From assembly GCF_002894645.1 (NCBI RefSeq), contig NZ_NCQY01000030.1, forward strand, positions 655,943 to 702,214: 46,272 nt of DNA, read 5' to 3'. This DNA is from Salinibacter altiplanensis (GTDB lineage Bacteria; Bacteroidota; Rhodothermia; Rhodothermales; Salinibacteraceae). Under the pieces are notes generated by a model. That model was given only the letters and a program-made list of their open reading frames with translations. It did not search any database and was not told the DNA's origin. A program made the translations under genes and the position numbers. This document shows positions 39,781-46,232 of this stretch, piece after piece. Within the stretch, counting starts at the first letter, position 1. Each line of letters opens with the position of its first letter.

Positions 39781-39898
39781 TGAATTCACCGTACAACCCC
39801 AGCGGACGTTCCGCCCTGAACTCGCCCGCACGGTCTACGTTTTGCGTTGCCTAGTGCTCATTGTCCTTTCTCCATTGATCTGCCCCCTCCGAACGCCC

Positions 39899-40174
39899 AT
39901 GGCCACCACGCAGGCGGAGTCGACCCCGAACCCAAACAGCCTCAAGTTTACGACGGACGACGGTGCCTTTCTCGACGGTGGCGTGGCCGCCTATGCCTCG
40001 GCGGACGAGGCGGACGATGATCCCCTCGCCCGCCGCCTCTTCACGATCGCGGGCGTCGACGACGTGTTCATCACCCCGCAATTCGTCACCGTGTCGAAGG
40101 CCCCCGCCGTCGACTGGGGCAGCGTGAAGCCGGACGTGGAGGCCATCCTCACCGAGCACCTGAGCGGGCGGTAG
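39899..40174 (+). CDS. Nfu N-terminal-domain protein (Fe-S scaffold-type)
   Basis: 91 residues from the ATG at 39899; the open frame starts 159 bases earlier but has no coding character. The whole protein is the Nfu/NifU N-terminal domain: TPNPNSLKFTTDDGAFLDGG, then LARRLFTIAGVDDVFITPQF, VTVSKAP. The C-terminal CxxC scaffold domain is absent, so it cannot hold a cluster by that motif itself. Strongly acidic. Its stop is 2 bases from the stop of the convergent LuxC-like gene. Confidence 0.88.
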   Translation: MATTQAESTPNPNSLKFTTDDGAFLDGGVAAYASADEADDDPLARRLFTIAGVDDVFITPQFVTVSKAPAVDWGSVKPDVEAILTEHLSGR

Positions 40175-40176
40175 CG

Positions 40177-41268
40177 TCAGCGCAGGGCCCGAAGAAAGTC
40201 AGCCAGGGCCCGTCCCGCGTCGTTTGCAAGCGGCGGGAGGTGAAGGTCCCCCGGCGTGCGGAGGGGCCACGACGCGGGCAGTTGGTCGTGCAGGGGCTCA
40301 CGGGCCACGACCGCAGCGAGGGCCGACCGGTGGGTGGTGATCCACTCATCGACCGCGTCAAGGGCCGTGTATTGCGTCCACCGGAGATGACCGTCGGGGC
40401 GTGGGACCTTCGGCTCGCCCCGGCTCATGAGAAACTCAAGGCCCTCGGCGTACGCCCGGGGTTCGTCGCGGGCCTCGAGGAATGCCTTCTGCATCTGGAG
40501 AGCGCCCGGCGTGTCCTCGTGCGCCGGAAAGACGCCGCGGAAGCGTGCCATGGCTTCGAGGTATGCATCCGGCGACAGGTCGCCCGGGGCCCACAGGAGC
40601 GCGAGCCGCCGGTGCCCACCGCCGTCGTAGAGCAGCGCGTCCTCCGCCAGTCCGCCCAGGGCATCGTCGCCCTCGTGCCCGTCGAGGACCGCCACGGCGA
40701 GCCGGGCGGGGCGCACGAGCCGGCGGTCGTCGGCGATGCCGTGATCATCGCACGCTGCGCGGACCGCCGCGGCGTCGTCCCGGACCGGCTGCGCCGTTAC
40801 CGCGGCGGCGCGCTCAAGAAGCGGCTCCTGTTCCACAAACTCCGCGTCGATACTGTCGGTCCGGTCCGACACGGCCCGCCCAAATGCGGGAAGCAGAGCG
40901 GGAGAGGCCTCCGCCGTATGCCCGAGATACGTATGCCCGTCGGCCCAGATTGCCACGGCGTCTCGGAGGCCCACAAGCGGCCCAGAGGAGCCGTGCAGGA
41001 CGCCCACGGTCGTCGGGGCCGCCGGGACCGCGTCGCCGAGCCAGTCGGTAAGAGCCTCCGGTGTGAGGCGCTGCATCCACCGGTTCAGGGCGTAGTCGAT
41101 CGCCTCCTTGGTCCAGCGGTTGGGCGCCGCCAGGGTGTCCGCGACGGCCGCTTCGCGCGGCGGATGGTCCGGCGCTCGCCAGTCTGCGGCGGCGGCGGCA
41201 ATGGCATCGATGCGGGCTTGTCTTCTCGCGCTCACGTGGGCATGGGGGTCGGGAGAGGAGGCGTGCAT
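40177..41268 (-). CDS. LuxC-like acyl-CoA reductase homologue lacking the catalytic Cys
   Basis: 363 residues from the ATG at 41268; in-frame starts at 41295, 41316 and 41400 are possible. The segment TVGVLHGSSGPLVGLRDAVA and the later RLAVAVLDGHE with APGDLSPDAYLEA align with the Bacteroidota acyl-CoA reductase (LuxC, PF05893), which reduces acyl-CoA through a Cys thioester. The reductase signature Y-F-G-L-G-C-R-N-V-S reads Y-D-G-G-G-H-R-R-L-A here, so the catalytic Cys is His219 (codon at 40614-40612, confirmed from the bases). The downstream HLRWTQYTALD is kept. The family usually sits next to ferredoxin or serC; neither is here. A binding or altered chemistry is possible. Confidence 0.75.
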   Translation of the reverse strand: MHASSPDPHAHVSARRQARIDAIAAAAADWRAPDHPPREAAVADTLAAPNRWTKEAIDYALNRWMQRLTPEALTDWLGDAVPAAPTTVGVLHGSSGPLVGLRDAVAIWADGHTYLGHTAEASPALLPAFGRAVSDRTDSIDAEFVEQEPLLERAAAVTAQPVRDDAAAVRAACDDHGIADDRRLVRPARLAVAVLDGHEGDDALGGLAEDALLYDGGGHRRLALLWAPGDLSPDAYLEAMARFRGVFPAHEDTPGALQMQKAFLEARDEPRAYAEGLEFLMSRGEPKVPRPDGHLRWTQYTALDAVDEWITTHRSALAAVVAREPLHDQLPASWPLRTPGDLHLPPLANDAGRALADFLRALR

Positions 41269-41423
41269 TTCGCCCGCCCTGCACGCGCACCCCATCACCG
41301 GTTGTTCCTCCTTCATGCCCTTCACATGTCCTCCCGTCGCCCCCGGTCCCCCCGAATCACCGGCGGCTCCCTCCCGTACCACCGGAAGGAACGACAGCAT
41401 TCTTCCGCGACCCCTGACTGCCC

Positions 41424-42665
41424 ATGCGCCAGTTCGACGTTCCTACGTTCTACAAGAGTCCCATCATCTCGACGGTCACGGATGCGCGGCAGGCCACCGA
41501 TCCCCGCAAGAACGACTTGTCCCCGTCGGTGATCGACTTTGGGCCGGTGCGCTTCAAAATCGCGCGACACTTTGGCTTTTGCTTCGGCGTGGAGCAGGCC
41601 ATCGAGATCGCGTACGAGGCACTGGAGGAAAACCCCGACAAGCGGATCTTCCTCCTCTCCGAAATGATCCACAACCCGCACGTGAACGAGGACCTGCGGG
41701 ACCGGGGCATTCGATTCCTGCGCACCACGCAGGGAGAGCAGCTCATCCCGTTCGACGCGCTGGAGCCGGACGACGTGGTCATCATTCCGGCCTTCGGCAC
41801 CACACTGGAGGTGGAACAGGAGCTCGAGCGACAGGGCGTCGACACCGAGGCCTACGACACCACCTGTCCGTTCGTCGAAAAGGTATGGCGCAAAAGCTCC
41901 CAGATTGGGGACGACGACTACTCGATCGTGGTCCACGGCAAGCGCTACCACGAGGAGACCCGCGCGACCTTTTCTCACGCGAAGGAGGAGGGCCCCGTCG
42001 TCGTCGTGCGGGACCCGGACGAGGCCCGGGAGCTGGCGAAGGTAATCCGGGGAGAGAACGGCCCTGATTTCTTCTACGACTACTTCGAGGACAAGTACTC
42101 GGAAGACTTTGACCCGGAGCGGGACCTGCGGCGGGTGGGCGTGGTGAACCAGACCACCATGCTGGCGGAAGAGACCGCCGCCATTGCCGACCTGATGCGC
42201 GACGCCATGATGGATCGCTACGGCGAGGCCGACGTGGAGGAGCGCTTTGCGGACACAAGCGACACGCTCTGCTACGCCACCAACGAGAACCAGAACGCCA
42301 CGCAAGCGCTCATCGAGGATGGAGCCGACCTTGGAATCATCGTGGGCGGCTACAACTCCTCCAACACGAGCCACCTCGTGGAGCTCTGCGAGGAGCACAT
42401 GCCCACATACTTCATTCGGGACGCCGACGAGTTCGACGCCCCCTCGGAAATTCACCACTTCGACGTTCACGCACAAGAAGAGGTCACGACGAGGGACTGG
42501 TTCCCCGCCGAGGACACGCCGGTCGACGTGCTGATCACCTCCGGGGCCTCCTGTCCCGACGCCCTGCTCGACGAGGTGGCCCGCAAGATCGTGAACTGGT
42601 ACCCGGACGCGCGTCCCGTGGAGGAGGTCCTCGCTCCCTTTAAAGAGGAGATAGGGGACGACTGA
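41424..42665 (+). CDS. ispH: 4-hydroxy-3-methylbut-2-enyl diphosphate reductase (IspH), long type
   Basis: Last step of the MEP route, giving IPP and DMAPP from HMBPP; uses a [4Fe-4S] cluster. 413 residues, about 100 longer than E. coli IspH and close to the cyanobacterial/plant form. The three cluster Cys are C53 (FGFCFGVEQAI), C148 (TTCPFVEKVW) and C377 (SGASCPDALL). Substrate His are in MIHNPHVNED and VVHGKRYHEET. Very acidic. ATG start, divergent from the LuxC-like gene (155 bases) and followed by a methyltransferase 71 bases later. Confidence 0.95.
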   Translation: MRQFDVPTFYKSPIISTVTDARQATDPRKNDLSPSVIDFGPVRFKIARHFGFCFGVEQAIEIAYEALEENPDKRIFLLSEMIHNPHVNEDLRDRGIRFLRTTQGEQLIPFDALEPDDVVIIPAFGTTLEVEQELERQGVDTEAYDTTCPFVEKVWRKSSQIGDDDYSIVVHGKRYHEETRATFSHAKEEGPVVVVRDPDEARELAKVIRGENGPDFFYDYFEDKYSEDFDPERDLRRVGVVNQTTMLAEETAAIADLMRDAMMDRYGEADVEERFADTSDTLCYATNENQNATQALIEDGADLGIIVGGYNSSNTSHLVELCEEHMPTYFIRDADEFDAPSEIHHFDVHAQEEVTTRDWFPAEDTPVDVLITSGASCPDALLDEVARKIVNWYPDARPVEEVLAPFKEEIGDD

Positions 42666-45265: not shown

Positions 45266-45349
45266 GCCCGAGTGGCGGAATTGGCAGACGCGACGGATTC
45301 AAAATCCGTTGTCCGCAAGGACGTGAGGGTTCAAGTCCCTCCTCGGGCA
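45266..45349 (+). tRNA. tRNA-Leu (anticodon CAA)
   Basis: 84-base class II tRNA. The 7-base acceptor stem GCCCGAG pairs with CTCGGGC (45342-45348), with A as discriminator. The anticodon stem ACGGA/TCCGT closes loop TTCAAAA, anticodon CAA at 45300-45302, reading UUG. A long variable arm (TGTCCGCAAGGACG) and the T-arm GGTTCAAGT are present. The CCA end is not encoded. It is followed by an integrase gene on the same strand, so its 3' end is a likely attachment site. Confidence 0.95.
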
Positions 45350-45454
45350 CTCCTGTCTTGATCGACGCTGAACAACGCTGGACGTCAGTTCCCTCTGCGG
45401 AAACGACGCTTGATACCGCTTCGTCTCTCGGGAAGTTAGTCATCCAGCCGCTAC

Positions 45455-45521: not shown

Positions 45522-46232
45522 ATGGCTTCTCTTTACAAGCGAGACAGCGGCACCTACTACGCTCAGTTCTACGACTCGGAGCGTTCTCCATCCCGCAAGC
45601 GGTTCAGCCTCCGAACGTCCACGAAAAGTACAGCCCGCCGGAAACTGACGGAGTTGGAAGATGCGTTCGTGGAAGGCAAATTTGACCCGTGGGCTAACAG
45701 CGGGCGCAAGACGGACCCTTTCAACTACAACCGACCAGAGGCCAGCCGTAATGCTTCCCTCTCGGATGCAATCGAGCAGTTTGCAGAGGCGAAGCGGAAG
45801 CAGGGACGCTCCGATCGAACCATCAGCACGTACCGCAACCTCTGGGAGCGGTTTACCGACCGATTCCGAGAAGGAACTAAGCTTTCGGGCATCTCGCCTT
45901 CGGACGTTGAGGCGTTCTGCTACGACGACAGCGTAAGCAGTGCCACCCGTCACAAGCGGTACCGTCACCTCCACGCAATCCTCAGCTGGGCAGAGGAAGA
46001 GGGACTGACCACTCAGTCGCCCGTTGAGGACGTATCAGCGCCTCAGAAAGAGAAGAAACTTCCGACCCCGGTACGGAAGGAAGACCTACCAAAGCTCTGC
46101 TCAGCGGTTGCTAAGCGGTACCGTAAGCTCCGGCGGGAACGCAAGTGTCGCCCCCGTCAGATCGTTTGGGTGATCCCAGTTTTCCGGTGGGCCTTCTACA
46201 CTGGAATGCGGGCTACGGAGATAGTGGAGTGA
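45522..46232 (+). CDS. Tyrosine recombinase/integrase, C-terminally truncated
   Basis: 236 residues to a TGA at 46230-46232. N-terminal SLYKRDSGTYYAQFYDSERS resembles the arm-binding domain of tyrosine integrases; the core-binding SAM-like domain is about 85-170 (GRSDRTISTYRNLWERFTDR, then TRHKRYRHLHAILSWAEEEG). The catalytic domain begins FRWAFYTGMRATEI, which holds the first catalytic Arg, then stops. The H-x-x-R and the Tyr nucleophile, which should follow within about 150 residues, are missing. The next 40 bases in frame give no match. So the gene is truncated, or the rest lies past the window after a frameshift or insertion. Base use is more AT-rich: three counted lines are 55-62% GC. 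Confidence 0.8.
   Translation: MASLYKRDSGTYYAQFYDSERSPSRKRFSLRTSTKSTARRKLTELEDAFVEGKFDPWANSGRKTDPFNYNRPEASRNASLSDAIEQFAEAKRKQGRSDRTISTYRNLWERFTDRFREGTKLSGISPSDVEAFCYDDSVSSATRHKRYRHLHAILSWAEEEGLTTQSPVEDVSAPQKEKKLPTPVRKEDLPKLCSAVAKRYRKLRRERKCRPRQIVWVIPVFRWAFYTGMRATEIVE

Follow-up and report, generated by a model that had tools for sequence, protein, structure and literature searches.

A LuxC-like protein without the acylation cysteine in Salinibacter altiplanensis, probably a maintained and catalytically disabled relative of the fatty acid reductase

A study on the LuxC fatty acid reductase of P. phosphoreum gives the acylation site as Cys286, located in the motif YDQQACFSTQ (PMC8301110). Dead aldehyde dehydrogenases are a known kind of protein, and the protein described here appears to resemble them. 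One example is human ALDH16A1, which is described as an ALDH-fold pseudoenzyme without catalytic residues, retained in evolution and thought to act via protein interactions (PMC10650815). In GRM1 microcompartment loci a second AldDH occurs with the catalytic Cys changed to Ser or Pro, for which the authors suggest a role as scaffold or regulator (PMC4207490). A description of a LuxC without its cysteine was not found in our literature search, the coverage of which left out most subscription journals.

The window analysed here, that is the whole stretch of 46,272 nucleotides, contains a gene for a LuxC-like protein (Table 1), the start codon of which is uncertain, with a further in-frame ATG at 41400. 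The window protein agrees with the LuxC reductase (PF05893; P. phosphoreum, PDB 7xc6) in the whole fold and in the position of the Cys column, and many related genomes have a relative with the cysteine (Cys-type) in this same chromosomal neighbourhood. In contrast to the reductase, it is devoid of the acylation Cys, the Gly-Asn and Ser motifs, Gln318, Gln343 and a PF05893 score, and LuxE was not found in its genome. With ALDH16A1 it would share an ALDH fold that was retained without catalytic residues, whereas ALDH16A1 belongs to another ALDH branch, is an animal protein and has no tie to the loss of a LuxE partner. Similarly, the second AldDH of GRM1 loci is a bacterial ALDH fold with a replaced catalytic Cys; it sits there beside an active paralogue, whereas none of the genomes typed in our study has a second full-length LuxC-like copy. 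By its modelled fold, the missing Cys and the selection on it, the window protein would belong to the pseudoenzymes of the ALDH superfamily, meaning an ALDH fold without the catalytic Cys which is kept by selection.

Table 1. Features of the LuxC-like gene and its neighbours (window coordinates)
Feature	Position	Strand	Basis or remark
Cys-less LuxC-like gene, 363 aa + stop	40177-41268	minus	ORF read, AlphaFold2, PDB match
Codon CAC, His219, column of the LuxC acylation cysteine	40612-40614	minus	profile alignments, codon read
Ser94-Ser95 replacing Gly-Asn (invariant in 18/18 sampled Cys-type sequences)	40984-40989	minus	
Ala119 replacing Ser of the SSxSP motif (invariant in the same 18)	40912-40914	minus	
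Ala318 replacing Gln (invariant in the same 18)	40315-40317	minus	
His343 replacing Gln (invariant in the same 18); marker residue of the Cys-less group	40240-40242	minus	
Cofactor-domain region, residues 86-195, diverged in decayed group	40684-41013	minus	boundary approximate, set by us
Catalytic-domain region, residues 196-305, conserved; holds D210, H250, H294, R296, W297	40354-40683	minus	boundary approximate, set by us
Stand-alone Nfu N-terminal domain gene	39800-40174 (stretch scanned; ORF from 39740)	plus	PF08712, E 3.5e-26
ispH (LytB), divergent neighbour of the LuxC-like gene	41424-42665	plus	PF02401, E 6.7e-71

An earlier note, made from the sequence of this DNA alone, had proposed LuxC-like ancestry and structure prediction as a way to check it. 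The AlphaFold2 model of the window protein reached a mean pLDDT of 91.9, and its top match among solved structures was the LuxC of the LuxC-LuxE complex (PDB 7xc6; Foldseek E 2.9e-14). With VIA-align, 347 residues were aligned to 7xc6 at Z 32.6 and rmsd 3.1 (runner-up entry Z 26.5), and by both methods the protein has the LuxC/ALDH fold. On its own it gave no match in Pfam, NCBIfam and PDB sequence searches up to E 10. The note had regarded a missing PF05893 score as evidence against the assignment; no score was indeed obtained at E up to 10 and the curated cut-off was not reached, a result overruled by the structure and by intermediate sequences. These comprise 12 of the 30 aligned family members, which match PF05893 at E up to 1. 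None of nine Cys-less members scanned singly passed the cut-off (for two of them the N-terminal part matched weakly, E 0.1 and 0.27), and the single Cys-type control did (E 1.6e-7). NCBIfam returned for the 30 members just two matches of one member each, to a phage head-tail joining family and to piperidine-6-carboxylate dehydrogenase. A profile of 18 Cys-bearing members aligned to 7xc6 (E 7e-7) with the cysteine of the GCR motif on the C of FYDQQACFS, and in the weak match of the window-family profile (E 0.14) residue 219 falls on the C of YDQQACFS. Hence the exchange of Cys to His219 that the note had read from the codon CAC at 40614-40612, within TAC GAC GGC GGT GGG CAC CGG (Y-D-G-G-G-H-R), was confirmed.

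The first search for relatives gave matches in 52 of 60 genomes, the own genome included. The final typed set comprises 104 genomes: 99 LuxC-like matches among 114 genomes of the order and five from outside. Many orthologues read GxGCR in the column of interest. Within the first 72 genomes (67 in the order, five outside) the residue is Cys in 37 and another one in 35, and within 32 later genomes of the order it is Cys in 30, Ser in one and Arg in one. Outside the order, Cys was present in all 15 loci that were read, out of 157 matching genomes (a tally of 197 less 40 counted within the order). The note had also suggested to look for a paralogue with intact Cys in the same genome; a protein search of the window genome at E up to 1 delivered a single copy. 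Two PF05893 matches in this genome turned out to be ordinary aldehyde dehydrogenases (PF00171), and the PF05893 genome search also gives matches in 11 of 14 control genomes. Apart from this, two short second fragments were seen in other genomes: G012 contains elsewhere (L279:2143-2265, minus strand) a stretch of 41 codons that is 51% identical to the N-terminal portion of its own LuxC-like protein and resembles the remnant of an earlier copy or of a related gene, and G001 has a shorter one with a stop.

The cysteine is not the only residue that was lost. We compared 17 columns that show no variation among 18 selected Cys-type sequences, of which 13 come from outside the order, with 35 Cys-less rows. 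A separate comparison, used below for residue 343 in the first set, for C173 and for the positions conserved in both groups, leaves out G111, the partial G013 and the five genomes from outside the order. In the numbering of the first A3 row, Cys and Asn107 are kept in no row, Asp347 in one, Gln321 and Gln338 in two each, Ser174 in three, Ser131 in four, Gly106 in eight and Gly173 in 12. Partly kept are Arg193 (14), Arg227 (23), Pro340 (25), Gly225 (27) and Leu214 (30), and retained are Gly223 (34), Pro109 and Pro235 (35 each). The window protein lacks the invariant Gly-Asn, Ser, Gln, Gln and Asp, residues for which a role in cofactor or substrate binding may be assumed. At the sequence level, the cysteine is thus one part among several of a decayed site. 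In two further genomes, G111 and G434, the Cys is present, yet the Gly-Asn motif and LuxE are missing and residue 343 is His, so that the Cys alone does not define the decayed group. Gly-His at positions 94-95 (G275, G376, G442) was scored as an intact motif. Taken together with the typing of the Cys column and the fold, the lost motifs lend good support to the non-reductase derivative which the note had postulated; the loss on the cofactor side, the absence of LuxE and the switch at residue 343 go beyond it.

The cysteine state is associated with the partner LuxE. In the 104 typed genomes we counted 61 with Cys and LuxE, six with Cys and no LuxE match, 37 with neither and none with LuxE in a Cys-less background. 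Since the search with the Pfam model PF04443 is insensitive (alone it found LuxE in 9 of 80 genomes, and G317, G126 and G033, in all of which hmmscan detects the gene, were not among them), a LuxE profile of relatives was used. It detected LuxE in 34 of 37 Cys-type and 0 of 35 Cys-less genomes of the first set, and in 27 of 30 and 0 of 2 of the later one, which stems from the same order, was analysed with no written prior prediction and is thus a replication on further members rather than an independent test. Neither the insensitive PF04443 search nor the profile revealed a LuxE gene in the window genome, which is 99.75% complete. The absence of LuxE is not just a matter of missing sequence, since 24 of the 37 Cys-less genomes reach 90% completeness or more with no more than 5% contamination. 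Directly upstream of several Cys-type genes LuxE genes (PF04443) are located, in some cases with matches that overlap by a few bases (G305, G388), and in other Cys-type genomes LuxE is found on another contig.

Of the six Cys-type genomes without a LuxE match, G111 and G434 have decayed motifs, and G034, G041, G444 and G446 are motif-intact, with a completeness of 97%, 85%, 62% and 91%, respectively. G034 and the decayed G055 are sisters in the rpoB tree, the pattern expected if LuxE was lost first. Two other genomes are irregular: G031 (77% complete) has a LuxE stretch and no LuxC-like match, and in G013 the LuxC-like gene and the LuxE match are both partial and lie at contig ends. An uncorrected Fisher test of Cys against LuxE gives p 2e-17, which treats related genomes as independent and is no proof. 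In a phylogenetically independent comparison, all three informative supported pairs agree and one or two more show no difference (p 0.25), a test of low power because the events are few.

How often the decay took place was addressed with trees that are all quick searches without bootstrap. The rpoB tree covers the 60 of 76 genomes with an rpoB match, of which 56 carry both traits. The fewest changes on it are seven for the Cys state, six for the motif state and six for LuxE, and forcing the 28 decayed genomes into one clade was rejected, with a log-likelihood 442 worse. In the LuxC tree with the decaying columns masked (the near-duplicates G293 and G042 as well as G013 left out), 33 of 34 Cys-less sequences group with G111 (support 86), and a single clade which also includes G055 was not rejected by the test (p 0.725). 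That the gene tree allows one clade and the rpoB tree speaks against it could be due to shared relaxed selection, to gene transfer or to an old duplication with differential loss. Because many loci of both types share downstream neighbours and none of the typed genomes has two full-length copies, we favour, with moderate confidence, decay in place in several lineages. A further-going idea, that LuxE loss repeatedly freed LuxC for a parallel conversion at the original locus, with the same exchange of Gln343 to His, decay of the NADPH domain and preservation of the catalytic one, and thus for a convergent pseudoenzyme or new enzyme, is put forward as a tentative one to which we would give less than even odds.

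The decay is confined to a part of the protein. In the cofactor region (residues 86-195) the mean pairwise identity is 0.461 among 58 motif-intact and 0.293 among 38 decayed proteins, compared to 0.548 and 0.580 in the catalytic region (196-305), 0.432 and 0.424 in the N-terminal helices and 0.356 and 0.343 at the C-terminus; the two groups differ in breadth, so that the contrast between regions is to be weighed and not the absolute identities (the five genomes outside the order and the partial G013, G460 and G055 were left out). Forty residue positions are conserved at 85% or more in both the Cys-type and the Cys-less group. Pairwise dN/dS in the decayed group ranges from 0.07 to 0.41 (33 pairs, three of which include the Cys-bearing G111), the lowest value belonging to a pair in which synonymous change is saturated. 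Within the window's subclade dN/dS is 0.16-0.41; in the intact groups 8 of 12 pairs yielded a value, and these lie at 0.12-0.21. The LuxC-like gene is therefore kept by selection under somewhat relaxed constraint.

Our best explanation, to which we assign a probability of roughly 0.6, is that the window gene encodes a maintained and catalytically disabled LuxC, in which the catalytic domain is kept and most likely binds an acyl ligand or a protein partner. In the ancestor, the LuxC cysteine would have received a fatty acyl group from LuxE, and reduction with NADPH would have led to the aldehyde. After the loss of LuxE the reductase chemistry would no longer have been kept, and the NADPH site as well as the nucleophile would have decayed. 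The LuxC-like protein would then have been retained for the remaining work of its catalytic domain, most likely the binding of an acyl ligand (fatty acid, acyl-CoA, acyl carrier protein) or of a protein partner, in the manner of a scaffold or sensor. The binding or sensing of acyl-CoA suggested in the note is a possibility. Presumably no acyl-enzyme is formed and no NADPH is used, and hence no aldehyde would be synthesised.

The replacement at residue 343, which corresponds to Gln338 of the first A3 row, is not random. In the first set, 32 of 35 Cys-less proteins have His, two have Gln and one ended at a contig end; in both sets together, His343 is found in 34 of 36 scorable Cys-less proteins, as well as in the two Cys-bearing decayed ones, and Gln in all 63 motif-intact ones. 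H250, H294 and R296, which are conserved, and the newly acquired H343 might just as well point to a new enzyme activity. A neofunctionalised enzyme, in which the ALDH catalytic domain performs another, NADPH-independent reaction such as hydrolysis or acyl transfer with conserved polar residues including His343, would fit to a catalytic region at least as well conserved as in the intact group and to the near invariance of H250, H294, R296 and W297. However, these four residues are conserved in the Cys-type members of the order too and need not mark a new active site, the Cys-less G001 and G012 retain Gln343, and no known catalytic constellation could be recognised in the sequence. On balance we consider such an enzyme unlikely, albeit the strongest of the alternatives.

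Less probable still is a relic with no present function, drifting under relaxed selection after LuxE loss towards loss of the gene. Some points are in line with it: families with decayed copies include genomes without a LuxC match (G203 as one of seven in f3, eight of nine in f13), all three genomes of family f4 have none, dN/dS in the window's subclade tends above that of the intact pairs, and G001 and G012 carry the second fragments mentioned above. However, the dN/dS values are well below 1, identity in the catalytic region is not reduced in the decayed group, the 40 shared conserved positions persist, and the main LuxC-like matches of the Cys-less genomes listed came without a reported internal stop.

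That His219 stands in for the cysteine in a protein that is still an acyl-CoA reductase is hardly credible, as His, fixed in the window's subclade (7/7) and confined to these close relatives, is one of ten different residues seen at this position among the 37 Cys-less proteins (ten of which have Pro) and thus not special, the cofactor-side motifs are gone too and LuxE was not found. Across the group, His is accordingly not a meaningful replacement. In the 35 Cys-less proteins of the first set the column contains Pro (10), Arg (8), His (7), Ala (3), Asp (2) and Val, Asn, Ser, Glu and Thr (one each). Another candidate was C173, the sole cysteine of the window protein. It belongs to a helix predicted at residues 163-175, within the cofactor region. 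Among 30 Cys-type orthologues its column shows Ala in 17 and Cys in 6, and among 35 Cys-less ones it is Cys in 22. Its position in the sequence is outside the active-site segment, and a relocated nucleophile is not apparent from sequence.

With a maintained, disabled LuxC as the preferred reading, reductase and pseudo-reductase forms would occur in the same neighbourhood of related bacteria, and the switch between them tracks the presence of LuxE. This amounts to a natural experiment that asks for what purpose an enzyme is retained after the loss of its chemistry. For annotation, a LuxC-like gene in these bacteria without Cys and LuxE is no evidence of fatty aldehyde synthesis.

The note had furthermore drawn attention to the Nfu N-terminal domain gene (Nfu_N). 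It is convergent to the LuxC-like gene, ends at 40174 and is separated from it by 2 bases, as stated there; the significance of this adjacency was not upheld. Beyond the Nfu_N gene follow a holin-like gene, an ORF to which no Pfam family could be assigned, adk and a polyprenyl synthetase gene. At many loci of the order the cluster of Nfu_N adjoins LuxC-like genes of the Cys and the Cys-less type alike (29 of 57 loci clustered). A functional tie to Nfu_N, ispH or other neighbours was considered and rejected: many downstream neighbours are common to both locus types, so they do not account for the Cys loss. The comparison of locus neighbourhoods revealed no conserved new gene partner around the Cys-less genes. 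Nfu_N is a syntenic neighbour and not part of a demonstrated system, and the adjacency looks like ordinary synteny. In the window the Nfu N-terminal domain forms a separate protein, with PF08712 as the only match.

Near the window end a tRNA-Leu(CAA) gene (45266-45350) is followed on the same strand by an ORF (45522-46232), the translation of which, read by eye, we take to resemble a phage-type integrase; together they possibly mark the edge of an integrated element. Outside the order, the Cys-type LuxC-like gene of several members of the phylum adjoins a divergent 4Fe-4S ferredoxin-like gene. In a context unlike that of the window's order, one locus (L118:3288-7961) shows a LuxC-like gene followed by genes for an aminotransferase class V and a 2-hydroxyacid dehydrogenase, presumably serC and serA, and for a DUF6146 protein.
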